Shown here: piece by piece, positions 544-19,351 of the stretch
Numbering within the stretch: the first letter of the stretch is position 1
How the letters are laid out: each line of letters starts with the position of its first letter
IMG/VR virus record: IMGVR_UViG_3300044647_002327
Coordinates: 1-21,501 of that record
Length of the DNA: 21,501 bases
Direction: 5' to 3' (one strand)
Origin: a virus
Translations under genes and position numbers: made by a program
Notes under the pieces: generated by a model
Databases searched by the model: none
Told to the model about the DNA's origin: nothing
Seen by the model: only the letters and a program-made list of their open reading frames with translations

Positions 544-905
544 ACCTACTAGTCGGTCATTTTTTTTTCGTCTTACTGCGCCTAAGAGAAGTCGCTTTCT
601 TTGTTACTTTAATTTTACCTGTATTCTGTCAGATCTTTCTGTCAACACGCTCAATCGCCGCTTTTGCTTCTTTTTCTCGCTATGGAGGCTACCGCCCCCG
701 CTCGTAAACCCTTGCCCCCACTAGGGGCTACAGGTTTTTTAAAACCATTTAGAAGCCCATTAAGACCCTTCAAATGAGAAAAACGACATAATGCAAGCCA
801 CGAAGCAAACCCCTTCTTAAAATTAAAATAAACCCCATAATTTTAATTTTTTGTTTTAGCTATTAAAGAGGCAAAGTAAAAATATTATTTTTTAAGTCAC
901 AAAGA
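544..905. other. Non-coding stretch with weak hairpins, no convincing gene
   Basis: I see no supported gene here. There is a GCCCC/GGGGC hairpin at 714-728 with a 5-bp stem and 5-base loop, followed by the palindrome GGTTTTTTAAAACC at 735-748. The pair could be a weak transcription stop but lacks a proper U-tract after the stem. From about 810 the sequence becomes very AT-rich, leading into the promoter of the rightward operon. Confidence 0.4.
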
Positions 906-969
906 AGTCACGTTGACAAAATTTATTTTGCATATTAATAACTTCACAGGTCACGAATAAGAACCGTGA
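894..969 (+). promoter_or_regulatory. Promoter and GTCAC repeat sites for the first rightward operon
   Basis: TTGACA at 913-918 is followed after 17 bases by TAATAA at 936-941, a good -35 with a mediocre -10. AAGTCAC is repeated at 894-900 and 905-911, just upstream of the -35. GTCAC occurs again at 950-954, where TCACG and CGTGA (951-955 and 965-969) form an inverted repeat around the expected transcription start. The arrangement suggests a regulated promoter for the gene starting at 1006. Confidence 0.5.
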
Positions 970-1005
970 TTGAAAAATAATTAGAACTACAGAAAAGGAA
1001 TTATC

Positions 1006-1686
1006 ATGTCGTACTTTTGCAAACCAAAACATGTTTCTCAAAAAACAATTAATGACAAACTTTATATATATGCCCCATTTAATCTATCTGCAAATAAAAA
1101 ATATAAAACTAGAGGTGGAAATTGGAACGCTAGTTTAAGAGCTTGGGAGTTTAATTCATTAGATAGTGATAAAGTGAATAAATTACTTGATTCTATTTTT
1201 GGAGAAAATGGAACAGAAAATGAAATTGAATATGTCTCCTTAAAATTAAAGGGCGAACGTTTATGCGGTAATTATGCTGATTTTGTATTAACAGGTAGGA
1301 AAATAGTAGAAAGAAAAGAAAGAAATTCTGAAGTTTCCCTTGATAGCCAAGCAATACTATTAAATGGTGTCTATGATAGGTCTGGCGGTTCCGTAGCTAA
1401 TCCAAAAATAACAGGCAAAGACGTTCAATTATTGTTAAGATATTTTCCAAAAAAATTAATTGAATCGATTAAAAAAGATTTTGAAAATGAAAATTTAGAA
1501 CTTGAAATAGACGAAGAAGACACTAAAAAAATTTCGGATTCAATGAATAAAACAGCACAAGAAAAACATGTAATTGCTAAAAATGAAAATGAAAATTTCG
1601 AAGAAAAATACAATAAGTTACTTATAGAACATAACGCCCTTTTAAATAAGATGAATGAAATAAAAAGTTTAATTAATACTTTTTAA
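1006..1686 (+). CDS. Hypothetical phage protein with an N-terminal GGxW motif and C-terminal coiled coil
   Basis: A 226-residue protein, ATG start preceded by AAAAGGAATTATC. Residues about 20-50 carry the pattern YAPFN...KYKTRGGNWN...RAWEF. This resembles the short 'K..GG.W......W.F' motif of HARP-like (SMARCAL1-type) modules and of many phage and plasmid hypothetical proteins, so a DNA-processing role is possible but unproven. Residues about 80-150 form a second beta-rich segment including NGVYDRSGGSVANPKI. The last about 60 residues are Lys/Glu/Asn-rich and look like a coiled coil. It is the first gene of the early rightward operon and lies directly behind the promoter at 913-941. No catalytic residues are apparent. 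Confidence 0.75.
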   Translation: MSYFCKPKHVSQKTINDKLYIYAPFNLSANKKYKTRGGNWNASLRAWEFNSLDSDKVNKLLDSIFGENGTENEIEYVSLKLKGERLCGNYADFVLTGRKIVERKERNSEVSLDSQAILLNGVYDRSGGSVANPKITGKDVQLLLRYFPKKLIESIKKDFENENLELEIDEEDTKKISDSMNKTAQEKHVIAKNENENFEEKYNKLLIEHNALLNKMNEIKSLINTF

Positions 1687-1709
1687 GTTAAAATAGGAAA
1701 TATAAAGTA

Positions 1710-2156
1710 ATGCTTTCCCATAAAGATTTCACGGAAGAATATGAAAAGAATATCAGGGCTTTTATGAGTGCTTTAGCAAGACTTGAAATTAAAAATTCAA
1801 AGCGGATTGCAAGATTTTTAATTAAAAAGTTTTCAGAAGAATTTAACAATATCAGATTTAATAGTGTGAAAATAACTCAATTCGAGTGGCTAAATGAAAC
1901 GGAGTACAACACAAGCTACAAAAATTTTGATGAGTTTATCGAAGAATTAATAGCTAAAAATGTTATTGTTTGCTTTGATAAAAATGATATTTTTTCCCCT
2001 CAATATAATATGGGGGAAGTAACTAGAAAGTATATCGATGTTGCGGATTGGCTTAATATTCCAAAAAAAATAAGTTTGCTTGAAAACGAATTAAACAAAA
2101 TGGCAACAAAAAAAGACTTAGAATATTTAGTAAATTCAGTTATAAAAAGAGACTAA
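1710..2156 (+). CDS. Hypothetical protein
   Basis: A 148-residue acidic/lysine-rich protein that I do not recognise. It starts 23 bases after the preceding stop, behind a weak TAGGAAA ribosome binding site. It appears fully soluble, with no signal peptide or membrane segment. Residues about 40-95 (IKKFSEEFNNIRF, then FDEFIEELIAKNVIVCF) alternate helix and strand as in small winged-helix domains. The C-terminal about 35 residues (LLENELNKMATKKDLEYLV) look like a short coiled coil. Spacing and orientation place it in one operon with its neighbours. Confidence 0.7.
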   Translation: MLSHKDFTEEYEKNIRAFMSALARLEIKNSKRIARFLIKKFSEEFNNIRFNSVKITQFEWLNETEYNTSYKNFDEFIEELIAKNVIVCFDKNDIFSPQYNMGEVTRKYIDVADWLNIPKKISLLENELNKMATKKDLEYLVNSVIKRD

Positions 2157-2158
2157 AA

Positions 2159-2551
2159 ATGAATACAGAACAAAATTACGTTGTACAAGAAAAACAGTTT
2201 AAAAAATTAGACGAAGATTTTGGTTTCTATGAATACGAAACTAGATTTATTATCTGCCAACCTGATGGGACTTTAATAGACGATGCGCAAGGATACGGGT
2301 ACAAAACAGCACAAGCAGCTCATAAAGCTCACTGGTTTAAAAATAAAGGTGGAAAAGAAAAGATAGATTTAACAAAAAAACAAGCTAATGTTTTTTGGAA
2401 GAAAAACAAAAAGTTTGGTGATGAATTAAGAGATTATTTAGAATCAAATTGGAAAAGAGAAATCCCCAATAAAGAGATAGAAGAGTATGCTAAAGAAAAA
2501 AATATAATTGGGTTTTCTCCTAAATTTTTGGAATACTTATTTAGATATTAA
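2159..2551 (+). CDS. Hypothetical protein with an aromatic, glycine-rich central motif
   Basis: A 130-residue basic protein whose ATG lies two bases after the preceding stop, so it is probably translationally coupled (no strong Shine-Dalgarno). The N-terminal half has two beta strands and the motif DDAQGYGYKTAQAAHKAHWF. A 'G-Y-G-[FY]-[KR]-[TS]...A..A' pattern of this kind recurs in small phage and plasmid proteins of unknown function. The C-terminal half is helical and lysine-rich, which would suit nucleic-acid binding. No enzymatic motif is visible. Confidence 0.7.
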   Translation: MNTEQNYVVQEKQFKKLDEDFGFYEYETRFIICQPDGTLIDDAQGYGYKTAQAAHKAHWFKNKGGKEKIDLTKKQANVFWKKNKKFGDELRDYLESNWKREIPNKEIEEYAKEKNIIGFSPKFLEYLFRY

Positions 2552-2607
2552 ATTGAAAAACTTTGTAAAATAAAAACACAATTATATTTTAGCAGGGAGG
2601 CTATAAA

Positions 2608-3405
2608 ATGAAATTAAAATCTATTCTAACATTATTTTCTATTGCAATTATTTCTACCTCTATCATTTCATGCAAAGGCAAAGATGGTGAAGATGGTAAA
2701 AAAATATTTGAAAAAGAAGTGCCCGTTTATATTCCACCTAAAAACGGTCAAGATGGAAAAGATGGTTTGAATGGCCGAGACGGTAAAGACGGTTTAAATG
2801 GTAAAGACGGAGTAGACGGTTTAAATGGCGTTAACGGAATAGATGGTTTAAATGGTAAGGATGGTAAAGATGGGATAAGTTATTCTGAATTTTTAGATCT
2901 AAAAAATTCTTTAGAAGCCCTCTCACTTAAAGTAAATGCTTTTGACCCTCCTACTTTTTCAGCTCCCGAAAACACAAATAAAGAAGAAATCGAAGTTAGA
3001 AATGAAATGCACAGAAACCTTTTAGATTTAAGGACTGAATTACAGACCGCAATTAGGAAATCAAAAGAAAGCACAACGCTTGAACAAAGCGAGAAATTGG
3101 CTCAACTTTCTGGTTCTTTGGAAAGAGTTACTGAAACATTAAATTCATTAATTGATATGGTTACATCGTCTGATTATTTATCAAAATATGCAACTTTAGA
3201 TAGAGTAAAAACAATCGAGGAACATTTAAGAACAGCTATCAATGCAATTAATATTTTAAAGAATCCTGAAAAAGCAAAATGCTTTAGTAAAAAACCTGAA
3301 GATAAACAATTTAAATATTCAGAGGAATGTACAAAATTAATGCAGGACGTTGTTAACGATAGAAACAAAAAACCTATTCCAAATTTGCCAGAAAATGAGG
3401 TGTAA
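2608..3405 (+). CDS. Predicted lipoprotein with collagen-like Gly-X-Y repeats
   Basis: A 265-residue protein behind a strong GGGAGG ribosome binding site. Residues 1-21 are a hydrophobic signal peptide ending in a lipobox (IIS-C), so Cys22 should be lipidated and the mature protein anchored in a membrane. Glycine occurs at every third position from residue 47 to 89, with triplets such as GKD, GLN and GVD, a collagen-like tract able to trimerise. Residues about 95-215 are heptad-like coiled coil. The last about 40 residues are Lys/Glu-rich with two cysteines. Mature Gly-X-Y proteins in phages are usually tail fibres, but this one is a lipoprotein in the early region. A cell-surface 'moron' function, such as superinfection exclusion or host-surface modification, is an inference. 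Confidence 0.85.
   Translation: MKLKSILTLFSIAIISTSIISCKGKDGEDGKKIFEKEVPVYIPPKNGQDGKDGLNGRDGKDGLNGKDGVDGLNGVNGIDGLNGKDGKDGISYSEFLDLKNSLEALSLKVNAFDPPTFSAPENTNKEEIEVRNEMHRNLLDLRTELQTAIRKSKESTTLEQSEKLAQLSGSLERVTETLNSLIDMVTSSDYLSKYATLDRVKTIEEHLRTAINAINILKNPEKAKCFSKKPEDKQFKYSEECTKLMQDVVNDRNKKPIPNLPENEV
2764..2871 (+). repeat. Four tandem 27-bp units coding the collagen-like tract
   Basis: Four in-frame units start at 2764, 2791, 2818 and 2845, each opening with GGTTT[AG]AATGG and coding for nine residues (GLNGRDGKD, GLNGKDGVD, GLNGVNGID, GLNGKDGKD). The units differ mainly in their second half. Such DNA-level repetition indicates expansion by slippage or unequal recombination, so the repeat number may vary between strains. 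Confidence 0.85.
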
Positions 3406-3406
3406 C

Positions 3407-3751
3407 ATGAATTTTGATTATCAATTGCCTGAAGATACACACGAGAACAGACAAAGAGATATGGTTTACCCCACTAGAATTTTAAACAATTTGGGAGGAG
3501 GAAACTTTATTGTAATGACAGACGCAACAAACATGGCTTTTACCAGAAACACTCTTGAGTTTTTTATACCTAAAAATATTTCTGAAGCAAACAAAATTGT
3601 AATCACCTACAACGAAAATGTAGATAGATATTTAATGTATTTTGTTAAGCACGATAAGCTTAAATCAGAAGTAATAAAACAAGAATTGAATTTAAAAGGC
3701 AGCGAATTAAGAGATAAATTTGAAACTAATACCCAACTTTCTACCCGTTAA
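3407..3751 (+). CDS. Hypothetical protein
   Basis: A 114-residue protein. I chose the ATG at 3407, which lies one base after the lipoprotein stop codon and behind GAGGT at 3397-3401. Earlier in-frame starts would lie inside the lipoprotein gene. The N-terminus is acidic and polar (MNFDYQLPEDTHENRQRD), followed by a beta-rich centre with a triple glycine (NNLGGGNFIVMTD) and a helical, charged C-terminus. No signal peptide or membrane segment is present. I do not recognise the family. It is the last gene of the early rightward operon, followed by a hairpin at 3757-3786. Confidence 0.65.
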   Translation: MNFDYQLPEDTHENRQRDMVYPTRILNNLGGGNFIVMTDATNMAFTRNTLEFFIPKNISEANKIVITYNENVDRYLMYFVKHDKLKSEVIKQELNLKGSELRDKFETNTQLSTR

Positions 3752-3756
3752 AACAA

Positions 3757-3786
3757 GAAAGCCCCGGCTTTTAGACTAGGGCTTTC
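3757..3786 (+). terminator. Hairpin after the early operon
   Basis: GAAAGCCC (3757-3764) pairs perfectly with GGGCTTTC (3779-3786) around a 14-base loop. It begins five bases after the stop codon at 3749-3751. The stem is followed by GAGTAAG rather than a T-run, so it would be an atypical intrinsic terminator or an mRNA 3'-end stabiliser. Confidence 0.5.
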
Positions 3787-3935
3787 GAGTAAGAACTACA
3801 GAACAAAAAACTCTATCGAAGAATCTATCTGTAACCCCTTGTAACTGCCACAAAAAAATACCCAAGTCAAAATCTTCCTGTAAAAAACTTTTAACTGGCT
3901 AAAAATAAAAAGCTTAACTTTTTCGAGTCAAAAAC

Positions 3936-3965
3936 TTGACAGGTGAATAGTTTTACCTGTAAAAT
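3936..3965 (+). promoter_or_regulatory. Strong promoter with an ACAGGT-N10-ACCTGT operator
   Basis: TTGACA (3936-3941) and TAAAAT (3960-3965) are separated by 18 bases. A 6-bp-arm inverted repeat, ACAGGT at 3939-3944 and ACCTGT at 3955-3960, sits across the spacer and touches both boxes, the classic layout for repression by a dimeric regulator. The block starting CCTGTAAAA at 3956-3977 is repeated with a few changes at 3877-3898, so a second upstream site may exist. It should drive the genes from 4031 onward, including bet. Confidence 0.6.
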
Positions 3966-4030
3966 ATTTTTAACTAGTGAAAGTAAGAACGTCATTAGTG
4001 AACAAAACACTTTATCGGAGGTATACCCCT

Positions 4031-4273
4031 ATGTTTACAAATTCAGAAATCAATTATTATTACGCTAAGTTAATGGCCGCTAGAGCAATTGGCGAATGCT
4101 ACCAAAACGATTTAGCTTACAAATTAGGCACTGATAGAACAATAGCGCATTCTGTGGCCGTAGCTTTAAAAGTTCCGTTTAAAACAACAAATACAATGTA
4201 CGGTTTAAGACTTAAATATGATGTGGAATTATGGCAACAAAAGCAAAGACTAGCTAAAGTTAATGCGTCGTAA
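4031..4273 (+). CDS. Small helix-turn-helix protein
   Basis: An 80-residue protein. The ATG at 4031 is preceded by GGAGG (4017-4021) at good spacing. Upstream in-frame GTG codons lack such a site. Residues about 23-50 (NDLAYKLGTDRTIAHSVAVALKVP) have the spacing of a helix-turn-helix. The same '[LV]A..L......a...L.[VI]P' pattern occurs in the small proteins at 5402 and 10399. It is the first gene behind the operator-bearing promoter and lies just upstream of bet, so a transcriptional regulator or excisionase-like role is plausible. Confidence 0.65.
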   Translation: MFTNSEINYYYAKLMAARAIGECYQNDLAYKLGTDRTIAHSVAVALKVPFKTTNTMYGLRLKYDVELWQQKQRLAKVNAS

Positions 4274-4320
4274 TGCTCATTAACACATAATTTTAACACA
4301 TACGGAAAAGGAATTTCCCC

Positions 4321-5358
4321 ATGACAGTAGTAAGAAAACCCGTTAATAAATATACAATAAAACCCACAGAAATTAAAATCCCTGCTGTTTCCACAGGAGC
4401 AACAGAAACAGCAATAACAGCAACATCAAACGAAACCCTAGAACGTCTTGCGCAATATGGATTCGATAGGGCTAGAGTTGAGCTTATCAAAGACCAGATT
4501 GCAAAAGGAGCTACCGACTTAGAATTAGAAATGTTCCTCATGACGTGCCAAAGAACAGGATTAGACCCATTTTCGAGACAAGTTTATATGATAAGACGCT
4601 GGAATAAAGACGCTACAACAAAAGATAAAAAAATAGCTACGATTCAAATATCAATTGATGGATTTAGAGCCATAGCAAGCGCACATCCCGATTATGCAGG
4701 CCAAACACCAACATTATTTTGCGGTAAGGATGGGATCTGGAAAGAAGTTTGGACAGGCGACGCTAGCAAAGGCGAGTTTCCTTATGCTGCTAAAGTAGGA
4801 GTTTATCGCAAAGGATTCGAGGCTCCCACTTACGCCATCGCTAAATGGGATTCTTACGTACAAACTTTTGATAATAAAGAAGAAAAAATTAAAAACGAAG
4901 TTTCCCCAATGTGGCGCAAGTTTCCTGAGTTGATGCTTGGCAAGTGTGGCGAGGCTTTAGCTCTTCGTAAAGCCTTTCCAAAGGAACTTTCTGGCTATTA
5001 TGCACCCGAAGAAATGGCTCAAGCTAACAATGTGATAGAGGTTGAATCAAGCCCTGTAAAAGCAATTAGCGAGCATGTAACGGCCGTTAAAACCGCTCCA
5101 GTAGCCCTTGCTGCTCCTGCTTCTACTCAAGCCCCTAAAGCTGAACTGGAATCAGATAAAGAACCTTACACGGGCAAAGACAACCATAGAGAAATTTTTA
5201 AAGACCTTATGGCGCAATTAAAATGTGTAAAAAATTGCAAGACCTCAGAAGAAAAAGCCCCGATTTACAAGGCTTTTAATGAAAAAAGTATGGGGGTGCC
5301 CCTATGTTTTTTGGAGGAGCATTTGAAGAATCTTGACGAAGAGGCAATGCACGCATAA
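4321..5358 (+). CDS. bet: Phage recombination protein Bet (RecT/Red-beta superfamily single-strand annealing protein)
   Basis: A 345-residue protein in the cytoplasmic family that anneals complementary single-stranded DNA during phage recombination. Family signatures are clear: LDPFSRQVYMIRRW from residue 81, ATIQISIDGFRAIA about 20 residues later, and GKCGEALALRKAFPKELSGYYAPEEM at about 206-231, the most conserved block of Bet proteins. At 345 residues it exceeds lambda Bet (261). The extra length is a threonine/alanine-rich N-terminus of about 40 residues and a C-terminal Ala/Pro-rich linker plus a short helical tail. The ATG is preceded by AAGGA. No partner exonuclease or single-strand binding protein is recognisable next to it. 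Confidence 0.93.
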   Translation: MTVVRKPVNKYTIKPTEIKIPAVSTGATETAITATSNETLERLAQYGFDRARVELIKDQIAKGATDLELEMFLMTCQRTGLDPFSRQVYMIRRWNKDATTKDKKIATIQISIDGFRAIASAHPDYAGQTPTLFCGKDGIWKEVWTGDASKGEFPYAAKVGVYRKGFEAPTYAIAKWDSYVQTFDNKEEKIKNEVSPMWRKFPELMLGKCGEALALRKAFPKELSGYYAPEEMAQANNVIEVESSPVKAISEHVTAVKTAPVALAAPASTQAPKAELESDKEPYTGKDNHREIFKDLMAQLKCVKNCKTSEEKAPIYKAFNEKSMGVPLCFLEEHLKNLDEEAMHA

Positions 5359-5364
5359 CAGGCA

Positions 5365-5382
5365 GGCAGTCAATTGACTGCC
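5365..5382. promoter_or_regulatory. Perfect 18-bp palindrome between bet and the next gene
   Basis: GGCAGTCAATTGACTGCC is a perfect palindrome in the 43-base gap between the bet stop and the ATG at 5402. Without a T-run it is a poor terminator. It could be an operator or an RNA hairpin that reduces read-through. A regulator dimer is the more natural reader of a spacer-free palindrome. Confidence 0.45.
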
Positions 5383-5401
5383 CCATAGAAAAGGGGAGTA
5401 A

Positions 5402-5626
5402 ATGGGATTTAAAGAGGCATTAAAGATGCAACGAGCAAAAATTTTAAAAGAGTGTGACAAAGATGAACTAAAAACATCAGAGCTTGCGGAAGTTTTAAAA
5501 TGCACAAAAATAACAGCTAGATTAGCAGCAAGTGAGTTAAAAATACCGTCAAGAGTTGAACCTTGCAGATATGGGGAACAGCGAATTTATTTAATAAAAG
5601 AATGGAAAGAAACTTACAAAGATTAA
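5402..5626 (+). CDS. Small helix-turn-helix protein
   Basis: A 74-residue protein behind a GGGGAG ribosome binding site. Residues about 23-49 (TSELAEVLKCTKITARLAASELKIPS) form a helix-turn-helix. The tail 'YGEQRIYLIKEWKETYKD' resembles the end of excisionase- or MerR-like folds, where a strand pair and helix follow the recognition helix. It is related in pattern and ending (WK...KD) to the protein at 10399. It overlaps the convergent gene by four bases. Regulator or excisionase are both possible; no integrase is seen in the window. Confidence 0.65.
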   Translation: MGFKEALKMQRAKILKECDKDELKTSELAEVLKCTKITARLAASELKIPSRVEPCRYGEQRIYLIKEWKETYKD

Positions 5627-5635
5627 TTAATCTTT
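5618..5635. terminator. Bidirectional terminator between convergent genes
   Basis: AAAGATTAATTAATCTTT is a perfect palindrome spanning both stop codons of the convergent genes and followed on the plus strand by three more T. On either strand it gives an A/T stem ending in a U-run. The A/T-only stem is weak, so efficiency is uncertain. Confidence 0.45.
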
Positions 5636-6069
5636 TTTAATCGTACCAAGTTATCTTTTATTTCTAAGTTATATTCAGGTCTAGAATTTATTGCTGTCTT
5701 TTTTTCTATAATTTTTGGGATATCTGCTAAATGTTTTTCCGCTCTTGATCGTGCTTCTTTTGCAAGTGTATCTTCAACTGGTTTTAAATAGATAAGCCAT
5801 TCTTGCTCGTTCCAGTATTTATTTCCTGCTTGCTGTTCACAAAGAAATCTAGCTAATAAATTTACAAAATTAATTGCGTGTTGTTCCGTATTATCAAACA
5901 GTTCTTTTGCTTCTGTTTCTGTAAAACCACTCTCTTTTTCTAAAATTGCTTTAATTACCGTATTTTCAAAAACTTCAAGCCAATTATCAAAAGTTTCGTT
6001 TTCACATGCTTTGTGAATAGAGCTTAAATAGTATAAATGATCGGGTAATTTAGGTAAAAATGTTCTCAT
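5623..6069 (-). CDS. Hypothetical protein
   Basis: A 148-residue, mostly helical, acidic protein read leftward from the ATG at 6069. I do not recognise it. The N-terminus has aromatic residues (FLPKLPDHLYYL). The centre has long amphipathic helices (TETEAKELFDNTEQHAINFVNLLARFL) and the C-terminus is basic. No signal peptide or transmembrane segment is present. It stands alone between two convergent units, with its own promoter candidate (6112-6140). This position and single-gene arrangement are common for phage accessory or regulatory genes, but no function can be inferred. Confidence 0.6.
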   Translation of the reverse strand: MRTFLPKLPDHLYYLSSIHKACENETFDNWLEVFENTVIKAILEKESGFTETEAKELFDNTEQHAINFVNLLARFLCEQQAGNKYWNEQEWLIYLKPVEDTLAKEARSRAEKHLADIPKIIEKKTAINSRPEYNLEIKDNLVRLKKIN

Positions 6070-6111
6070 AATTCTGTTCTTTTTTTAAGGTTATGGCCAA
6101 AAGCCAATATT

Positions 6112-6140
6112 AGCATAGAGCAAATTTTACAGCCGTGCAA
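6112..6140 (-). promoter_or_regulatory. Leftward promoter candidate for the gene at 5623-6069
   Basis: On the minus strand TTGCAC (6140-6135) is followed after 17 bases by TATGCT (6117-6112). Both boxes match the sigma70 consensus in four of six positions. The predicted leader of about 40 bases precedes the ATG at 6069. Confidence 0.45.
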
Positions 6141-6261
6141 ACAAGCAAAAAAATCTAAATGAAAATAAATTTATCGGCATTGTTATGCTTTGCCTAATAA
6201 CCAAACATTTTTTGTTGAAAAAGTATTTTGTAACAACATCTTGTTGCAAGAGTAAATAATA

Positions 6262-6291
6262 TTGAGGTTTTTGCAGTAACAAAAACCTCAA
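6262..6291. terminator. Perfect 12-bp-stem hairpin downstream of terL
   Basis: TTGAGGTTTTTG (6262-6273) pairs exactly with CAAAAACCTCAA (6280-6291) around a 6-base loop. A second small hairpin, CAACA/TGTTG, lies nearby at about 6233-6245. The gap between terL and the gene at 5623-6069 holds no convincing coding region. The strong hairpin most likely ends leftward transcription of the terminase operon, about 120 bases beyond its stop, although the T-run is poor. A small structured RNA is the alternative. Confidence 0.45.
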
Positions 6292-6408
6292 CTTTAAATT
6301 TAGGACAGAGCATATGCAATGAGTAAAGGATTCGGAAGCTGAAGGCAAGTCACCAGAAAAATTTTTTTTCTAAAACGAAGTAAAATAATTTATAAAAACT
6401 AAAGCATG

Positions 6409-8274
6409 CTAAAAATCTCTTAAAGAACGATTCCAGTTTTCCAATAATGGGTCACGTTCTCTTTCACGTTTTTTAGGTTCAATTTTAATTTTAGGTTTTT
6501 TTGCATAAATTCGGTCATTTAGCTCTTGCCATTTTTGCTCTGAATATGTGTCAATCCCCAAATCGTATGCCACTGCTCTTGCATAAATTCGGCAGTCTAA
6601 AGCTTCATTTCTTGTAAAAGTTTTCTTCCAATGATTATTATAATACGTCTCGGAACATAACATTTTAAAATAATATTCTGGATAATCTGGAAAATGGCAA
6701 TAAGCAATTGGGGTTTTGCCGTCTTCAATTCGTCTGTTTAAATTACCATAAAATTCAGTCTTAAACTTATCAACTTGCACAGATAAAACTTTAATTGTTT
6801 TACCTAAATAAAATCCATTGCTATTTTTTTCTTTTACATCAATTGTAGAACACATTCCTTTTGTGCCACGTGTAGACGTTCCTTTAACGGGAATGACTTG
6901 ATTAAATCGCTCGTGAGTTCTACAAAAGTTATAAATAAAATTTGACCGATTCCCATCTGAGCAGTCAATGCCCATTCTTTCAATAGGTAACACAGCGTCA
7001 CTATCTGCTACAGGAAATAACTCATTTGTTACTTTTCTTAACTCATCCCACACCTCAGCTTGTGAAGTGTCCCCTAGTAAAGTCCTGTAACAAATACTCC
7101 AGCTTTCCCTGTTTTTTCCCCAAGCCACAACTTCTAATTCAATTCTATCATGCTGAACATCAGCCCCACAGGTTAAAAGGCATGCCCCTTTAGGGACTAT
7201 ATTTTGTGGGTAATATTCACGTCTATTGTATATCTTTTCAAAGTCAAATATTTCTCCTGTTTCTTCGACAGGCAAACCAGCTTCTAGGTTTATCAAACTA
7301 ATTTTTGCATTTTCATCAAAAGCGGCCGCTTCAATTTGCCTTGCAATATCTGCCCAACTTTTCCAACCTATTGGCGCATACATTGAGCTAATATGAAAAC
7401 TTGCATGATTAGGGTCTTTGCTTTTAGCGGTAGGAATCCATTTGCCACGAGGAATAATATTTATTTTATCAATTTCAGAAAATAAATTTTTACATTGGAT
7501 ACATTCATATTTTACAGACTCAAAATTATCTTCTTCCCATTTTAATTGACCGATTAAGAGTTCTTGAAAATGCTCACAATGGGGACAGGGTACATGAAAC
7601 TTTCGTTGGTCTCCTTCTAAGTAACTTTTATAAATTAAACTTGTTTTTGCGTCCGTGGGCGTACTATTGATAAATATTTTTTTATTGGAAAATGTAGAGG
7701 TTCTTGCAGAAGCTAATTTTATAGGCGAACCTTCTCCGTCAAGATTCCGAGGCATGCGATCAACGTCATCAAGAACGAGAATTCTTACTGGATTAGAGCA
7801 TAATCCAGCAGAACTATTTCCACCTGCAAAGTATAAAACACCGCCCTCATATTCTTTCATTAAAGTAGTGTTACCGCCAGCTTGAGAACGAGCAGCTTTA
7901 AATTTATCTTTAATCTTTGGAATCTCATCTAGCAAAGGCGTAAATCTGTTCTTACTAAATCCCTCCACCAACTCTTGATTAGGCATAACAAGCAATAAAG
8001 GGCATGGGTCTAAATCTGCATAATAAGCTAACAAGTTGTTTGCAAATGTAGATAGCCCTAATTGTACCCCCTTCATTAAAGTTACAATCTGAAAAGGCGA
8101 GCTTAAGCTTAATAACTTCATTGGCTCTCTCAAATATTCCACACGCTCCACACTGTAATTACCTGCCTCGGCTGAAGATTTAGAAGAAAGTTTTACATAC
8201 TTTTCGCACCATTCAGGCAAGTCAATTTGTTCAATTGGCTTTATTCCACGAAGAAAAGCGTCTCTATACCCCAT
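6409..8274 (-). CDS. terL: Terminase large subunit, GpA family
   Basis: A 621-residue packaging motor of the lambda gpA family, which cuts concatemeric DNA and drives it into the prohead with ATP. Residues 67-77 (MKGVQLGLSTF) fit the deviant Walker A of lambda gpA, in which the lysine (here K68) opens the loop. Walker B is RILVLDDVDRMP at 164-175. A Cys4 zinc-binding pair follows at C230/C233 and C258/C261. The C-terminal half carries the nuclease fold, with CGADVQHDRIELEVVAWG and GIDCSDGN as the likely metal-binding strands. The C-terminal tail is Lys/Arg-rich. The start overlaps the end of the small-subunit gene by 11 bases, behind AGGTGA. The gene runs opposite to the portal and capsid operon. 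Confidence 0.95.
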   Translation of the reverse strand: MGYRDAFLRGIKPIEQIDLPEWCEKYVKLSSKSSAEAGNYSVERVEYLREPMKLLSLSSPFQIVTLMKGVQLGLSTFANNLLAYYADLDPCPLLLVMPNQELVEGFSKNRFTPLLDEIPKIKDKFKAARSQAGGNTTLMKEYEGGVLYFAGGNSSAGLCSNPVRILVLDDVDRMPRNLDGEGSPIKLASARTSTFSNKKIFINSTPTDAKTSLIYKSYLEGDQRKFHVPCPHCEHFQELLIGQLKWEEDNFESVKYECIQCKNLFSEIDKINIIPRGKWIPTAKSKDPNHASFHISSMYAPIGWKSWADIARQIEAAAFDENAKISLINLEAGLPVEETGEIFDFEKIYNRREYYPQNIVPKGACLLTCGADVQHDRIELEVVAWGKNRESWSICYRTLLGDTSQAEVWDELRKVTNELFPVADSDAVLPIERMGIDCSDGNRSNFIYNFCRTHERFNQVIPVKGTSTRGTKGMCSTIDVKEKNSNGFYLGKTIKVLSVQVDKFKTEFYGNLNRRIEDGKTPIAYCHFPDYPEYYFKMLCSETYYNNHWKKTFTRNEALDCRIYARAVAYDLGIDTYSEQKWQELNDRIYAKKPKIKIEPKKRERERDPLLENWNRSLRDF

Positions 8275-8956
8275 CTATATCACCTGTTACTTTTTCTGTT
8301 TCCTTCTCTTCAGGTAGATTTAAAATATTCAAAACATTTGTTAACTCTTTAGTTAAATGTGTTTTAATTGTATGGGGTTCTGTAAAACTGGAATAAAGAT
8401 TGCAAACCCTTTGGGGAATTAACATCAATTGTATTCTAACTTTTCTACCTATTTCAAATGCTTCTTTTTCAACTTCTTCCGAACTAATTAAACTTTTTTT
8501 CTCTTGCAAAAGCTTTAAACGTGTTCTCTTAACGTCTAAAGCCATTTTTTTTGTTTTCTCAAAGTCATATCTTAAATCAGAATTGTTATTGTTTTCTGTA
8601 TTATTTACGGGCGTGCGAACATGGAAATTAGAGCCATTGCTAGACCTAGCACGATGCTTATTGTTATAAGTATTGAAACTAGAAATATTATTGTTACGAT
8701 TGTTTGAATAAGTGTCATTAGAATTTTTGTTAATTTTTTCATTAATATCATTTTCTTTTTTACTGTCATCTAAATTATTTGTATTTTTTTTTGAAAAAAC
8801 TTTTAAAACCTGAGTTAAGTCATATAAAACTTTTCCTTTACTATCAACGTTTTTTGCAAAATCTAATCTTTTTTGAGCAATTAGTTTAGATATGTAGGGT
8901 TTGCTGACTCCCATTTCTTTAGCAAGGTTTGTGGCATTTATTAAAATAGAAGTCAT
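8264..8956 (-). CDS. terS: Terminase small subunit (Nu1-like), with an Asn-rich linker
   Basis: A 230-residue protein directly upstream of the large subunit, overlapping it by 11 bases, as expected for the DNA-recognition partner of a GpA-type terminase. Residues about 7-40 (ATNLAKEMGVSKPYISKLIAQKRL) are a clear winged helix-turn-helix like that of lambda Nu1, which binds the cos or pac site. Residues about 58-125 are low-complexity and extremely rich in Asn, Ser and Asp. The C-terminal about 100 residues are helical (FEKTKKMALDVKRTRLKLLQEKK) and would mediate oligomerisation and contact with the large subunit. The start lies one base after the upstream stop, with only a weak ribosome binding site. 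Confidence 0.85.
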   Translation of the reverse strand: MTSILINATNLAKEMGVSKPYISKLIAQKRLDFAKNVDSKGKVLYDLTQVLKVFSKKNTNNLDDSKKENDINEKINKNSNDTYSNNRNNNISSFNTYNNKHRARSSNGSNFHVRTPVNNTENNNNSDLRYDFEKTKKMALDVKRTRLKLLQEKKSLISSEEVEKEAFEIGRKVRIQLMLIPQRVCNLYSSFTEPHTIKTHLTKELTNVLNILNLPEEKETEKVTGDIDGV

Positions 8957-8957
8957 T

Positions 8958-9587
8958 TTATTTTACTTTCTTTAATTCTTTGTCTAAATAATAATTTATA
9001 TTGTGCTTCAATCTGTTTAAATAAGTTTGCTTTGCTTTAGCACTTATTAAATCTGCAATTCCCATATTGTTTTTAATTACATCGGTCATGCTTACATTAC
9101 TCATCTCTCTCTTGTATGAATCTCTAGCGGAAGACTCACGACCTAATGCAATTTTAGTATTTTTAATTGCATTGCCTTTTTTACTAAGCCTTAAAAATGT
9201 TCGGTTTGTAGCAACATCTTTTCCTAAAATCTTAGCTGTTACTTTTGTATATTTACGCTTTCCTTTTTTACCTAATATTTTTTCAGTTCTAAGTTGAAAA
9301 TTTGAAACTGCTTCTTGGAATGTGGAAAAACCTATAGAGGCTTTCATGTCTTTTATGGGGGTATTATCTTTTGCCTTTAATTGTTTAAAAACACGCTTGT
9401 GAAAAAGCTTTACAGGTACTTTAATTTCTTTTTGTTTATTTAATTGTGCTCTTGCAAATGAGGTGACACTTTTTTGAGTTTGTTCCAACGAGCGACGAAT
9501 TGCCGCTTTTAATGCTTGAGATGCTATTTCTTTTGTTGCTTTTTTTAATGAATCTAACGTTTTTGTTTTTATTTGGATGGTAGCCAT
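8958..9587 (-). CDS. Minor tail protein Z-like (GPZ family) head-tail protein
   Basis: A 209-residue very basic protein (Lys/Arg-rich throughout). I chose the ATG at 9587, preceded by AAGGA at six-base spacing, over a TTG two codons upstream. Its pattern (ALKAAIRRSLEQTQKSVTSFARAQLNKQ, then a central VPVKLFHKRVF...ASIGF segment) matches the prophage minor tail protein Z family, whose members act near the neck/tail in lambda-like phages. I base this on general resemblance, so the assignment is moderate. It lies in the leftward terminase operon, separated from the rest of the tail genes, which are on the other strand. The upstream gene appears to run 152 bases into it. Confidence 0.6.
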   Translation of the reverse strand: MATIQIKTKTLDSLKKATKEIASQALKAAIRRSLEQTQKSVTSFARAQLNKQKEIKVPVKLFHKRVFKQLKAKDNTPIKDMKASIGFSTFQEAVSNFQLRTEKILGKKGKRKYTKVTAKILGKDVATNRTFLRLSKKGNAIKNTKIALGRESSARDSYKREMSNVSMTDVIKNNMGIADLISAKAKQTYLNRLKHNINYYLDKELKKVK

Positions 9588-10020
9588 TTTCAATCCTTGT
9601 TAATGTAAAACCTAATTGTTTTTTTTGTTTAGTGTCCTCTTTTATTTTGTAATAAGATTCAAGACAACCGTTAATAACGGGAGGAAGTTCTTTTTTTTTC
9701 AGCCATAGCGGCAAGGGTTTTCCTTGTTCTGCAAGTCGGTAGAATTTGGGTGCAAGCATTTCTATAGCTAAAAGCACATGGCACGGTTTGACATTCGTCT
9801 TCGTAACAAGGAGAGTTTCGGCCATCAGATCTTCAACCATGACATGGCCTCTGGAAAAATAAGCATATCTACTTAAAATAAAACAAGCTTGCCTAACTGG
9901 CTCAAGAAGAACTCTCGGAGATTTTTTAAAATCATAGATATCTTTTCCGATTAAAGTGCTCACTCTTCCCAAATCGTCTATTACCGTACAAATTGTCCTT
10001 GGTGTTATTTTTATTTCCAT
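9436..10020 (-). CDS. Hypothetical protein, C-terminus probably frameshifted
   Basis: A 194-codon frame read leftward from the ATG at 10020, with AAAAAGGA upstream. I do not recognise it. Residues about 35-95 (LLEPVRQACFILSRYAYFSRGHVMVEDLM...KPCHVLLAIEMLAPKFYRL) are helical and look like a genuine conserved core. The last about 50 residues are merely the other frame of the next gene's N-terminus, and the 152-base overlap is unlikely to be real. Codons near 9619-9626 contain an A8 run. Losing one A gives a TAG at 9612-9614, and gaining one gives a TGA at 9590-9592. Either would end the protein just before the next start. It is the first gene of the terminase operon. Confidence 0.6.
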   Translation of the reverse strand: MEIKITPRTICTVIDDLGRVSTLIGKDIYDFKKSPRVLLEPVRQACFILSRYAYFSRGHVMVEDLMAETLLVTKTNVKPCHVLLAIEMLAPKFYRLAEQGKPLPLWLKKKELPPVINGCLESYYKIKEDTKQKKQLGFTLTRIENGYHPNKNKNVRFIKKSNKRNSISSIKSGNSSLVGTNSKKCHLICKSTIK

Positions 10021-10051
10021 GCAACTATTCCTTTTTATTCAGATAGCTACA

Positions 10052-10079
10052 GGTTAACTTCTAATGTAATCGGTTAACT
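10052..10079. promoter_or_regulatory. Two GGTTAACT sites upstream of the terminase operon
   Basis: GGTTAACT, containing the palindrome GTTAAC, occurs at 10052-10059 and 10072-10079, exactly 20 bp apart (about two helical turns) and 32-59 bases before the ATG of the leftward operon. The spacing is that of a paired operator. I see no clear sigma70 promoter on the minus strand here. Confidence 0.35.
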
Positions 10080-10188
10080 AATTTTAATTTTAAATTAATT
10101 ATGGATAACTTTTTAAATTGATTTTATTGGGAGAATTTTTAACAAAAAATTTTCAGGATAAGAATTGGAAAAAATCTTAAGACCAAGA

Positions 10189-10218
10189 TTGACAAAACAT
10201 ACCCCTATGTTTTATATT
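10189..10218 (+). promoter_or_regulatory. Rightward promoter with a CCCC-centred palindromic operator
   Basis: TTGACA (10189-10194) and TATATT (10213-10218) are 18 bases apart. The spacer is filled by AAAACATA-CCCC-TATGTTTT (10194-10213), an inverted repeat with perfect 8-bp arms, well placed to block RNA polymerase when bound. It should drive the 28-codon ORF at 10270 and the HTH gene at 10399. Confidence 0.6.
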
Positions 10219-10269
10219 TGCGAGACTAAGGAATTGAATTTTCTTAGAAAACAAAATAGGAGGCTCAAA

Positions 10270-10356
10270 ATGACAACCGCATCAACTATGACAGATTTAA
10301 ACGGGATTGTTGGGAATTATTTAGGCGATACTTATACAAAATTTGGAGTGGAATGA
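10270..10356 (+). CDS. Predicted 28-residue small protein
   Basis: A 28-codon frame (MTTASTMTDLNGIVGNYLGD..., ending FGVE) behind a very strong AGGAGG at 10258-10263 with six-base spacing. It is the first start after the operator-bearing promoter at 10189-10218. The peptide is acidic and not hydrophobic, so it is not a small membrane toxin. It may be a real small protein or a leader peptide that sets translation of the gene at 10399. The frame extends upstream, but any earlier start would fall within the promoter. Confidence 0.45.
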   Translation: MTTASTMTDLNGIVGNYLGDTYTKFGVE

Positions 10357-10398
10357 AAAATATTTAAAAGAATAAGAAACAAAGAAAGAGATTGCTTA

Positions 10399-10758
10399 AT
10401 GTCTGAAGGTGAAAAAACAAGAGAGCGATTTTTAAATATAGCTAAACATTTGGGGCTTGAAAACCCTGAAAATTATGCAAACAACGCTCTCAGAAATTTG
10501 AACATGTACGATTCAATGATTAGAAAAAAAGATAAAAATTATAAGATTAATTTTCTAAAAACTCATCCTAGTTTTGATAGCGATAATTTGAAATATAAAG
10601 ATGTTGCTAGAATATTGGGGACTGAGCTTAGGTATACAAAAAAATTAATAGTTGATTTACAAATACCTGTAATTTTAAAACCAAAACTTGATAATGAAAA
10701 TGATGTGATTGGGTATGTCCAGCTTAAAACTTGGAGAAAGGCAATAAAGAAAGATTAA
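10399..10758 (+). CDS. Helix-turn-helix protein, related to the small HTH proteins at 4031 and 5402
   Basis: A 119-residue protein. Its C-terminal half (YKDVARILGTELRYTKKLIVDLQIPVI, then a strand pair and KTWRKAIKKD) follows the same helix-turn-helix plus wing pattern as the protein at 5402, with the same WK/WR...KD ending. The N-terminal about 60 residues are an extra charged helical domain (EKTRERFLNIAKHLGLENPENYANNALRNL). It lies between the leftward terminase and lysis operons as a separate rightward unit, which suggests a regulator of the flanking late genes. This is inference. The ribosome binding site AAAGAGA is weak. Confidence 0.65.
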   Translation: MSEGEKTRERFLNIAKHLGLENPENYANNALRNLNMYDSMIRKKDKNYKINFLKTHPSFDSDNLKYKDVARILGTELRYTKKLIVDLQIPVILKPKLDNENDVIGYVQLKTWRKAIKKD

Positions 10759-10768
10759 GAATTTTTAT

Positions 10769-11146
10769 TTATCTTTTGCCTGCTTCTAGTATGGGTAAAT
10801 TTGCTTCTGTAGGAATATAAATCACTTCTTTATTATTCCCATTTAAATTTGATATCCAAAGATAACGTAAATAACTCTCATTATTTTTTAATGAGCTGCC
10901 TATAATTTCGTTTGCTTTAGCTACACCTTTAGCCCGTTCTATTTCTGCAAGAGCTTCTGAAATTGCAGCTTCTTTTTTTGCTTCTGCTTCAAGGATTTTA
11001 ATTTTCCTATTTGATGTTGCTCGTGCTAATTCTGCTTCTCCTTCTTTTTCTTGCTGCCAAACTTTATAAAGAGGGTAAAAAGTAAATCCACTAATTACCA
11101 TAATTGTTAATGTTATTATTGTATAAATTAAATTAGATTTTTTCAT
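10769..11146 (-). CDS. Membrane protein resembling the C-terminal tail of SPFH/prohibitin proteins
   Basis: A 125-residue protein with one N-terminal transmembrane segment (about residues 7-29). It continues into a charged helix (EAELARATSNRKIKILEAEAKKEAAISEALAEIERAKGVAKANEIIG) and ends in SYLRYLWISNL...KEVIYIPTEANLPILEAGKR. This Ala/Glu/Lys helix followed by 'YLRYLWI...VIYIPTE.NLPI' is the tail of stomatin/prohibitin-like (SPFH) proteins without the SPFH core. Short proteins of this type occur in phage lysis regions. Topology suggests an inner-membrane anchor with the helix in the periplasm or cytoplasm, so a spanin-like or host-membrane-quality-control role is possible. It follows the acetyltransferase in the lysis operon. 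Confidence 0.7.
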   Translation of the reverse strand: MKKSNLIYTIITLTIMVISGFTFYPLYKVWQQEKEGEAELARATSNRKIKILEAEAKKEAAISEALAEIERAKGVAKANEIIGSSLKNNESYLRYLWISNLNGNNKEVIYIPTEANLPILEAGKR

Positions 11147-11150
11147 ATAT

Positions 11151-11759
11151 TTAAGAATTTCCTTTAATCAAGTTTAGAAGCTTTTGCATATTTCCTTCTG
11201 AATGTTCACATAATTTATCGGAAAAGCAAACCATGCCAGTTCTGTATAAATAGGCTTTCTTTAAATCTTCATTTAAAAAATGAGTTAGCCAGCCTATTTG
11301 CCCATATTCGGCATGTGTTTCTATCCCTGTAATATAAAAATCTTTCTTAATCATTTGCGCCAATATATTGTTATTTGATAAGACAAAGCAGCATATAATC
11401 TGAATAAATCCTAATTCTTTGCAATACTCAATTGCTTTATTCAGACACTCCGATAAAATCCCCTGCCTTTGATATTCTTTTTTAACGACTCCATGGCGTA
11501 GATAGTAAACATCTATGTCTCTCTGCTCTCCCCTAAATAATGCAATAGCTTTATCACCGTCTTTTAAAATAAAATGATGAGAGATATTTGAAGTCTTATT
11601 TAATAGATTTTGTCTTTTTAATTTTTGCTCATTTGTTAAAATTCCTTCACGAATAAAAGTAATTTCATCAGGGAAATCTTGCATAAATTCATTATAGTAA
11701 ATGTCCCAATATTGGGAATCGTTTACTTGTATTACTTGATAATTTAAAATTGTATTCAT
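11151..11759 (-). CDS. GNAT-family N-acetyltransferase inside the lysis cassette
   Basis: A 202-residue predicted cytoplasmic acetyl-CoA-dependent transferase. Motif A is visible as RHGVVKKEYQRQGILSECL at residues 88-106, with Q97-x-x-G100 in the acetyl-CoA pyrophosphate loop; the usual last Gly/Ala of that loop is Leu102 here. The following strand (IQIICCFVLSNNN) and helix (ILAQMIKKDFYITG) fit motif B. The N-terminal 60 residues and the C-terminal about 50 residues are extra and may define the substrate. Start ATG at 11759 behind AAGGA. It lies between a putative holin/spanin and the SPFH-tail protein, which is odd for a lysis cassette. The target (protein, metabolite, antibiotic) cannot be read from the sequence. 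Confidence 0.75.
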   Translation of the reverse strand: MNTILNYQVIQVNDSQYWDIYYNEFMQDFPDEITFIREGILTNEQKLKRQNLLNKTSNISHHFILKDGDKAIALFRGEQRDIDVYYLRHGVVKKEYQRQGILSECLNKAIEYCKELGFIQIICCFVLSNNNILAQMIKKDFYITGIETHAEYGQIGWLTHFLNEDLKKAYLYRTGMVCFSDKLCEHSEGNMQKLLNLIKGNS

Positions 11760-11788
11760 AAAAATATCATCCTTAATATTTAATTAAA

Positions 11789-12166
11789 TTAATAGTTCTT
11801 CTTTGATTCTATACGGTATAGACGTTTCTCTTGTTCTGCTTGAAGTCTCTCAATTTTCAATTGTTGTTCTTTAAGATTCAATAAGTCCCTTTGATTCGAT
11901 TCAAGTTTCACTTGAATCTTTTCAGAATTAATATTTGCTTGTTTTTGCTCTTTATAAATATCATCTATTTTAGCTAAAACTCCATTGTTTATATCTTTAG
12001 CTACATAGCCCACAAATACAAAAACTGTAATCAAAACCACAGTACCAAAAACATAAGGTGCGCCTGAGCCTGTGAAACCTTCAGTAACTTTATTGACCAA
12101 TCTTTCAGTCATTGTATTGGCATTATCCTGTGATTTATTATTTGGGGGGCTTGAATTATTTTCCAT
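11789..12166 (-). CDS. Single-pass membrane coiled-coil protein, holin or inner-membrane spanin candidate
   Basis: A 125-residue protein. The N-terminal about 36 residues are polar (Asn/Ser/Pro-rich), followed by one transmembrane segment (about residues 37-55, APYVFGTVVLITVFVFVGYV). A long charged coiled coil then runs to the C-terminus (KIDDIYKEQKQANINSEKI... LKIERLQAEQEKRLYRI). It starts within the last 11 bases of the endolysin gene, behind AAAAGGA, so the two are translationally coupled. The position next to the endolysin and the topology fit a haemolysin XhlA-type holin component or an i-spanin. The sequence alone does not separate these. Confidence 0.6.
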   Translation of the reverse strand: MENNSSPPNNKSQDNANTMTERLVNKVTEGFTGSGAPYVFGTVVLITVFVFVGYVAKDINNGVLAKIDDIYKEQKQANINSEKIQVKLESNQRDLLNLKEQQLKIERLQAEQEKRLYRIESKKNY

Positions 12167-12671
12167 TTGTTATCCTTTTTTTATTATTGAAATACGCCCT
12201 TATTTTAGATATGCGGTTTATCCAACCTTTTAATGGGTATTCATTTATTGAGGTAGTTTTGTAATATATTTCAGCTATTTTTTTGAATTGTTTTAATCTA
12301 AAGTCATAGAGGGTTTCTAAAATTTCTGATTCTGTCATGGGTCTTTCTAATATTTTTGCATTCATATATTCAGTTATTTTTTTGTGACCATAACTACCCC
12401 CATTAACTAAACAATCAAAATAATTATAATGAATTTCTATTCGCTCATTAAAGCGACAGTTCTTAAAAATTTCTTCTTGATAAAAATATTTAACTTCTTC
12501 GTCAGATAATGAGCTGACAGGTTTAATAGGAATACCCATTTTTTTACAAAAATTATTGTATGTTTTTTGGGTAATCCCTCTAAAAGTTTCCCCTCCCCTA
12601 TCACGAGGATCATTGCTATGTCTCCCTTCCACTTTGTCCAAAATGTTTAAAAACTCGTTTAATCTGCTCAT
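12156..12671 (-). CDS. Endolysin, glycoside hydrolase family 108 N-acetylmuramidase
   Basis: A 171-residue peptidoglycan hydrolase. The ATG at 12671 is preceded by GGAGG at eight-base spacing. The family signature 'EGG..NDP.D.GG.T..GIT' appears as VEGRHSNDPRDRGGETFRGIT at residues 14-34, with Glu15 as the predicted catalytic acid. The C-terminal part (YFDCLVNGGSYGHKKITEYMNA) matches the predicted peptidoglycan-binding domain that usually follows in these enzymes. No signal peptide is seen, so export would depend on the adjacent membrane protein acting as a holin. It is the first gene of the leftward lysis operon, diverging from the structural operon across the 113-bp palindrome. Confidence 0.88.
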   Translation of the reverse strand: MSRLNEFLNILDKVEGRHSNDPRDRGGETFRGITQKTYNNFCKKMGIPIKPVSSLSDEEVKYFYQEEIFKNCRFNERIEIHYNYFDCLVNGGSYGHKKITEYMNAKILERPMTESEILETLYDFRLKQFKKIAEIYYKTTSINEYPLKGWINRISKIRAYFNNKKRITNGK

Positions 12672-12679
12672 CTTCAAAA

Positions 12680-12792
12680 CCTCCAAAATTTTAAGAAAGC
12701 ACGTACCTAATTGAAAGGGTTGGACTTTTTAAATCGGATTTAAAAAAACTAAGCGAATCAATTGGCTACGTGATTTTTTAAAATTTTGAGGG
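12680..12792. promoter_or_regulatory. 113-bp imperfect palindrome forming the divergent lysis/structural control region
   Basis: The left half (12680-12735), read on the minus strand, matches the right half (12737-12792), read on the plus strand, at 43 of 56 positions, centred on base 12736. Blocks conserved in both arms, going outward, are GATTTAAAAA, TCAATT, TACGTG and TTAAAATTTTG. Each arm ends in the ribosome binding site of its own gene. The endolysin ATG (12671) and the connector GTG (12802) lie 65 and 66 bases from the centre. No sigma70 -35/-10 pair stands out, so the shared blocks may be a phage-specific late promoter or activator site. Confidence 0.7.
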
Positions 12793-12801
12793 GGTGAAAC
12801 C

Positions 12802-13014
12802 GTGTCAGAAAACAGATCAAAATTAATGGAGCAATTGGAAGCCGTTGAGGAAGCCATATTTAGCAATGTAAAAATTGTTAAATTTGATGGTAAAGAAGTT
12901 CATTTTAAAACAACAAGCGAACTATTAAATGCACGGGATATTTTAATTACAAAAATTAATTCATTAAATAGGAACAGACCAAACAGGCGAGTAATGATTT
13001 ATGATCCAAGATAA
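12802..13014 (+). CDS. gpW-like head-tail connector protein
   Basis: A 70-residue protein starting at GTG, seven bases behind GAGGGGG. Length, position just upstream of the portal, and layout resemble lambda gpW (68 residues): an N-terminal helix (SKLMEQLEAVEEAIFS), a beta hairpin (VKIVKFDGKEVHFKTTS) and a second helix (LNARDILITKINSLNRN) with a basic tail. gpW completes the head and forms the tail attachment platform. It is the first gene of the rightward structural operon, and its last 14 bases overlap the portal gene. Confidence 0.8.
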   Translation: MSENRSKLMEQLEAVEEAIFSNVKIVKFDGKEVHFKTTSELLNARDILITKINSLNRNRPNRRVMIYDPR

Positions 13015-16320: not shown

Positions 16321-16361
16321 TAAAGTAACAAACATAACTAAATTTAGAAAGGATTAAAAAA

Positions 16362-16688
16362 ATGACTTTAGAAAAACCTAAACATTACACTGGCAAAATT
16401 GGCGAATATACAACTGGATATTTTTCAGCTCCTGAAAATGTAAAAGCACATGAACCCTATTTATTAGGTAAAATAGTTTACGTACCGTTAACTAACGCAA
16501 AACAAGGTGAGCATGTTACAGTGGATTTTAAAGGCCAATTTTTATTAGCAGTGACAGGAAAATTCGTTGCAGGTGCTCCGATATATTTGGACACTGCCGC
16601 TAGAACATTATCAGCAACTCAAAATAATAATTTAATTGGTTATGCCCTAACTAGCGGTGAAAATGAATTAGCGGAGATTCTCATATAA
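16362..16688 (+). CDS. DUF2190-type capsid decoration protein
   Basis: A 108-residue beta-rich protein that starts behind AGAAAGGA and follows the capsid gene directly. The pattern GEYTTGYFSAPENVKAHEPYLLGKIVYVPLTNAKQGEHVTVDFKG...LAVTGKFVAGAPIYLD...LIGYALTSGENELAEILI matches the DUF2190 family, small proteins found next to phage capsid genes and considered capsid cement/decoration proteins. It is likely to bind the outside of the expanded head. Its stop overlaps the next start by one base (TAATG). Confidence 0.8.
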   Translation: MTLEKPKHYTGKIGEYTTGYFSAPENVKAHEPYLLGKIVYVPLTNAKQGEHVTVDFKGQFLLAVTGKFVAGAPIYLDTAARTLSATQNNNLIGYALTSGENELAEILI

Positions 16689-17047
16689 TGAAAATAAACT
16701 TTAATTCATTAGTAGAAAACGCTTCAAATATAATTAACAGAACATTAGGTGAGCCGCTTTTAGTCCAATTTAAAGACGATAGGTTTAATTTATTGACTGG
16801 TATTTATGGGGAGAAGTTACTTACCCCTTTAGAAAACTCTATTGCAAGTATTACTGATTACCTTTGTACGGTCAGTGTAAAATCTAAAGATGAATTTGAT
16901 AGAGTAGAAGTCAATTTTGTTAAAATTAAAGAAAAGAAATATAGCGTTGTAGCACAAGAAACTTTGCAAGGATTTATCAAATATTATCTAGGTGAGTATC
17001 ATGACAATTCAAGTAACAAGAAAATTAATAAAAAAAGAGATTTTTGA
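16688..17047 (+). CDS. Putative neck or head-tail joining protein
   Basis: A 119-residue protein that I cannot match confidently to a family. The position between the capsid decoration gene and the tail genes, the length, and the mixed beta content (GEPLLVQFKDDRFNLLTGIYGEK...DRVEVNFVKIKEKKYSVVA) are as expected for a lambda gpFII-type head-tail joining protein. The start shares a base with the previous stop and has CGGAG upstream. The charged C-terminus runs 47 bases into the next gene. Confidence 0.55.
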   Translation: MKINFNSLVENASNIINRTLGEPLLVQFKDDRFNLLTGIYGEKLLTPLENSIASITDYLCTVSVKSKDEFDRVEVNFVKIKEKKYSVVAQETLQGFIKYYLGEYHDNSSNKKINKKRDF

Positions 17048-18945: not shown

Positions 18946-18956
18946 AGGATATACAA

Positions 18957-19319: not shown

Positions 19320-19351
19320 TAATAAATTTATAAAAGTAAAAGGATTTTATC

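Follow-up and report, generated by a model that had tools for sequence, protein, structure and literature searches.

A predicted lipoprotein with a collagen-like tract encoded in an early operon of a probable Silvanigrellales phage

Organization of the locus

The DNA analysed here (hereafter the window; 21,501 nt, 33% GC) spans in full the 21.5-kb IMG/VR record IMGVR_UViG_3300044647_002327. A gene coding for a predicted 265-residue lipoprotein is the fourth of five closely packed, co-directional genes on the + strand, upstream of recT. The features of this region are as follows:

1006–1686, + strand: first operon gene, with a match to PHROG 18108
1710–2156, + strand: second operon gene
2159–2551, + strand: third operon gene
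2594–2600, + strand: Shine-Dalgarno sequence AGGGAGG, read from the sequence, 7 bases before the start codon
2608–3405, + strand: gene for the 265-aa lipoprotein with a putative collagen stalk (open reading frame and translation; Pfam Collagen above cutoff)
2608–2673, + strand: predicted signal peptide (residues 1–21) and lipobox Cys22 (IIS/C, from a regular-expression scan; hydrophobic core)
2746–2880, + strand: collagen-like tract of 15 G-X-Y triplets (residues 47–91), with a 27-bp periodicity
2881–3402, + strand: mainly helical C-terminal domain (residues 92–265) with Cys225 and Cys241; an orphan by sequence
3407–3751, + strand: fifth operon gene, PHROG 9437, starting one base past the lipoprotein stop codon
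3757–3786, + strand: hairpin at the end of the operon, lacking a T run, a possible terminator (z = -1.70)
4321–5358, + strand: recT, the gene for an early single-strand annealing protein (Pfam RecT, 1.1e-28)

The first and fifth operon genes (1006–1686 and 3407–3751) have no relatives in viral contigs. The - strand between 5623 and 12686 codes for the terminase, a GNAT acetyltransferase, an SPFH-like fragment and a GH108 endolysin, and the genes from portal to tape measure lie on the + strand from 12802. Because its operon precedes recT and the virion genes start only at 12802, about 10 kb away, the lipoprotein gene belongs to the early, recombination-linked part of the element and not to the virion module, which upholds the placement among early, non-virion genes proposed in a previous, sequence-only reading of this DNA.

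The phage and its probable host

The terminase of the window and that of the Silvanigrella aquatica phage MWH-Nonnen-W8red 2 (CP017837; L013), a record that also contains ParA/ParB-like ORFs, share 47% identity. A near-identical record, IMGVR_UViG_3300044731_001710 (G001), matches the window at 100% identity from position 4305 to its end and continues for another 4.1 kb; a gene in this extension and a gene of the Pigmentibacter ruber plasmid pGTC16762-2 show 84% protein identity. That plasmid, on which a baseplate J gene was also found, is probably a phage-plasmid. Both S. aquatica and P. ruber are members of the Silvanigrellaceae (Bdellovibrionota). As the CP017837 phage and the Pigmentibacter plasmid are the nearest relatives, the host order is probably Silvanigrellales, bacteria with two membranes, and the host itself probably one of the freshwater relatives of Silvanigrella. 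Genome contigs scanned with the single terminase protein gave no match, and those scanned with a terminase alignment gave a distant Chromatiales copy only.

The window, a fragment, has no recognisable integrase, repressor or tail-fibre gene. Past its right end, in G001 (L014:1693-3171), the tape measure gene is directly followed by genes for a resolvase and for a RelE-type toxin with an HTH antitoxin; tail genes were expected in this position, and a rearranged or defective element is therefore possible. At the other side, G001 ends at window position 4305, just upstream of recT, and the lipoprotein gene falls outside it. This break may reflect population variation in the lipoprotein operon, or an assembly break only.

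Architecture of the lipoprotein

The N-terminus of the protein, MKLKSILTLFSIAIISTSIIS followed by C22, matches the lipobox pattern [LVI][ASTVI][GAS]C. The signal peptide has lysines at positions 2 and 4, then a 17-residue uncharged hydrophobic core leading into IISC, with a mean Kyte-Doolittle value of 1.99. The features of bacterial lipoproteins, a charged start, a hydrophobic core and a lipobox cysteine, are all present, and the view that the 265-aa product is lipid-anchored is supported, the call being that of a simple regular expression and not of a trained signal-peptide predictor. The lipobox claimed previously was thus found in the exact ORF 2608–3405. The same expression revealed no other plausible lipoprotein gene in the window, its one further match being a 53-aa ORF antisense to another gene.

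Three G-X-Y triplets, from residue 24, and a linker precede the main tract, in which 15 triplets follow each other uninterrupted; runs in 20,000 shuffled versions of the mature sequence reached 6 at most, and the match to Pfam Collagen (PF01391) scores 31.4 bits against a cutoff of 27.2. The 15 glycines at every third residue noted earlier are therefore confirmed, and they form the long unbroken run of a collagen-like sequence, although a short one of its kind. Position X is mostly occupied by K, L, V or I and position Y by D or N; proline is absent from the tract. In the PDB, the tract matches 8zxl. Tandem Repeats Finder reports periods of 27 and 54, in agreement with the 27-bp units described in the sequence-only reading. 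However, the length variation suggested there was not upheld: the four GxDGLNGxx units agree at only 19–22 of 27 bases (70–81% identity), and a second allele was not found, G001 ending before the gene. Recent length variation by slippage was discounted because of this divergence, and the periodicity is old or selected and does not represent a fresh expansion.

For the C-terminal domain, a structure model made without an alignment (mean pLDDT 44) predicts helices at residues 92–110, 125–154, 160–194, 198–218 and 239–254. Heptad-like amphipathicity is clear for 160–194 (P=0.0003), marginal for 198–218 (P=0.015) and not significant for 125–154 (P=0.16). Of the coiled coil previously assigned to the region after the collagen tract, then, the part at 160–194, and less so at 198–218, is supported by the analysis, whereas 125–154 gains no significant support; because of the low pLDDT and the limitation of amphipathicity to some helices, a coiled coil is plausible for part of the domain only. 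In an exported protein, Cys225 and Cys241 could form a disulfide. Searched on its own, the C-terminal domain found no relatives among viral contigs, and its best match in phages, at E 1, is no better than noise.

Relatives of the protein, and lipoproteins in related phages

What the whole protein matches among viral contigs, phages and plasmids it matches through the collagen tract; most of the annotated phage proteins among these are tail fibres. None of the collagen-match ORFs that were read out has a lipobox. A Salmonella phage collagen tail protein (L102) begins with a signal-like hydrophobic stretch, so that a hydrophobic N-terminus alone is indecisive. A Microcystis plasmid match (H45) was rejected as a relative, being a long collagen protein without a lipobox. 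No collagen domain was found in the related phage records tested, and to that extent the earlier suggestion of a moron, as an accessory gene, is supported.

Predicted lipoproteins of unrelated sequence nevertheless recur in this phage group, since three related records each carry a lipobox protein. Two of them, from the Silvanigrella phage CP017837 (L013:24930-25676; 248 aa) and from the Pigmentibacter plasmid AP029161 (L100:5845-6645; 266 aa), are 34% identical to each other, and in both a proline-rich tether precedes a further C-terminal domain, which they share. They resemble the window protein in host family, in size and in the succession of lipobox, extended tether and further domain, but differ in that the tether is proline-rich and not collagen-like, and no homology to the window protein was detected. 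The third (L022:47-793) is a full Band-7 (SPFH) protein with a lipobox. The L013 and L100 proteins had no convincing Pfam or PHROG match and are candidates for an uncharacterised phage lipoprotein family.

Promoters, dyads and the timing of expression

Elements that may control the two early operons were found upstream of each:

946–967, + strand: operator-like dyad upstream of the lipoprotein operon, with 2 mismatches to the recT dyad
3936–3965, + strand: candidate recT promoter, TTGACA-18-TAAAAT, the best promoter match in 700–6400
3939–3960, + strand: perfect 22-bp dyad, ACAGGT-N10-ACCTGT, within the candidate recT promoter

A perfect TTGACA (913–918) precedes the dyad at 946–967; its -10 element is weak. 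In the whole record, 946–967 is the sole other match to the recT dyad at up to 2 mismatches, and just 0.2% of 5,000 dinucleotide shuffles of the 232-base upstream region equalled it (P=0.002); there is no such dyad in 20 kb of G001 sequence, which is mostly identical to window positions 5646–21501. Because the dyad is common to the recT promoter and the lipoprotein operon, joint early control is suggested, and we regard this as moderate evidence that one regulator governs both operons. If that regulator is the phage repressor, the lipoprotein would arguably be silent in a lysogen and appear early in the lytic cycle. The expectation that the protein is expressed by a prophage is accordingly weakened, the shared dyad favouring joint early expression and possibly repression in the lysogen.

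The region upstream of recT (3865–4020) also contains direct repeats, of 27 nt at 3877 and 3956 (81%) and of 12 nt at 3865 and 3926, an arrangement that fits the expectation for a multi-operator control region.

A possible early modifier of the host envelope

Phage proteins with a lipobox and phage collagen tracts are each well known separately. The literature searched contained no case of the two combined in an early operon, a weak negative. We consider an alteration of the infected cell's surface to be the most likely function of the lipoprotein, and we tentatively assign a probability of about 0.35 to exclusion or early envelope modification by an early-made envelope lipoprotein. The lipobox, the 15 triplets, the operon next to recT and far from the virion genes, the dyad and the two-membrane host all favour this reading, as do the unrelated lipoproteins of related phage elements and the literature on phage lipoproteins. 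By analogy with the latter, the protein may block competing phages, and superinfection exclusion is plausible; against exclusion stand the orphan C-terminal domain, with its poor model, and the weak -10 of the operon. A search with PADLOC matched the lipoprotein to no known exclusion family or defence system, and PHROGs returned only collagen-tract or weak matches of unknown function.

In such a scheme, the operon would be expressed and the lipoprotein produced early in infection. Its signal peptide would be removed by signal peptidase II, leaving Cys22 at the N-terminus, where it would be acylated. In E. coli, Asp at +2 is a retention signal; with Lys at +2 and no such Asp, the protein would, by that rule, reach the outer membrane. 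The 45-residue collagen-like tract may then trimerise into a short stalk of about 13 nm, held together by the helical C-terminal domain, which would be presented away from the membrane; further phages would be unable to adsorb to, or inject through, the altered envelope. In its most specific form, in which a trimeric collagen-like stalk holds a helical receptor- or adsorption-blocking domain off the membrane of the Bdellovibrionota host and so excludes superinfection, we think the proposal rather unlikely.

Several phage lipoproteins offer precedents. Llp of T5 is described as an early-expressed lipoprotein that blocks FhuA, jamming it from the periplasmic side (PMC9586334); the lipoproteins of mEp coliphages exclude phages and were found in 40/48 genomes, in four sequence types (PMC11893012); and Ltp is a moron carried by a prophage (PMC6356513). 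T5 Llp, Cor, mEpimmI Lpp and Ltp share with the window protein a phage origin and a lipobox, and exclusion lipoproteins exist in types with no sequence similarity to one another. In contrast to the window protein, those compared have no collagen stalk, we found no sequence similarity between them and it, and at 265 aa it is larger than Llp (61 residues in the modelled form; PMC9586334). Collagen-like lipoproteins have also been predicted in Burkholderia (PMC4565658), where Bucl8 and Bucl3, like the window protein, combine a predicted lipid anchor and a collagen-like region; they are, however, chromosomal, carry OEP or Talin-1 domains and are unrelated in their non-collagen parts.

In phages, collagen tracts are familiar chiefly as parts of virion fibres, and the lipoproteins best studied as envelope modifiers are small. 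An early-controlled lipoprotein on a collagen stalk, if real, would unite both and would make envelope modification by a phage gene open to testing in a group of hosts that has been little studied. Were the exclusion stalk real, a fold used to build fibres would have been turned against rival phages. The unrelated lipoproteins across related phage elements point to an accessory slot worth surveying.

Alternative functions

It is also possible, though well short of an even chance, that the protein acts in lysogenic conversion: a prophage or phage-plasmid would express it, and as an adhesin or by modifying the surface it would benefit the host (in biofilms or in attachment to animals). Bacterial collagen-like surface proteins are described as often serving adhesion and biofilm formation (PMC3268755; PMC10987987), a stalk suits a surface adhesin too, and the relatives, in which lipoproteins recur, are plasmid-borne or extrachromosomal, a state that permits expression of such genes. 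But the dyad common with the recT promoter points to early lytic control, and the window has no recognisable gene for partition or lysogeny. That the gene is a passenger from the host, with a role in the host envelope and no selected phage function, would agree with a C-terminal domain that has no relatives in viral collections; we nonetheless find it unlikely, given the intact frame, the good ribosome-binding site and the tight position within an operon of phage-family genes.

A tail or head fibre whose hydrophobic N-terminus is merely signal-peptide-like was also considered: tail-fibre or other structural annotations account for nearly all collagen matches in phages, and the window itself lacks a tail-fibre gene. 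The EPcl proteins of EHEC prophages, proposed to be side-tail fibres in which the collagen adjoins a coiled coil (PMC3368898), and the PHROG collagen-like minor tail proteins resemble the window protein in placing a G-X-Y tract by a coiled-coil-like helical region. The likeness is, however, limited to the collagen tract; the window protein differs from the phage collagen fibres in its lipobox signal peptide and its early operon, some 10 kb from the portal gene, and it has neither PfN/PfC nor another virion-attachment domain and lies outside a tail module. A virion component was therefore rejected as the leading view and appears improbable. Least probable is a protein of lysis or envelope disruption such as an outer-membrane spanin: an envelope lipoprotein would suit a two-membrane host, and the endolysin gene has no recognisable spanin pair beside it, but size (265 aa), topology (no C-terminal transmembrane segment by inspection), the lack of a spanin match and a location far from the endolysin (12156–12686) and its neighbour (11789–12686 in all, on the other strand) led us to reject it.

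In the same - strand block, the GNAT acetyltransferase gene (11151–11759) lies between the lysis genes and the SPFH-like fragment (10769–11146), which matches PHROG 11227 and, weakly, PHROG 200 (lipoprotein). An imperfect inverted repeat of 105 bp (12684–12788), whose two arms of 52 nt are 79% complementary and separated by 1 nt, sits between the divergent endolysin and portal-side genes and is a possible bidirectional control region.
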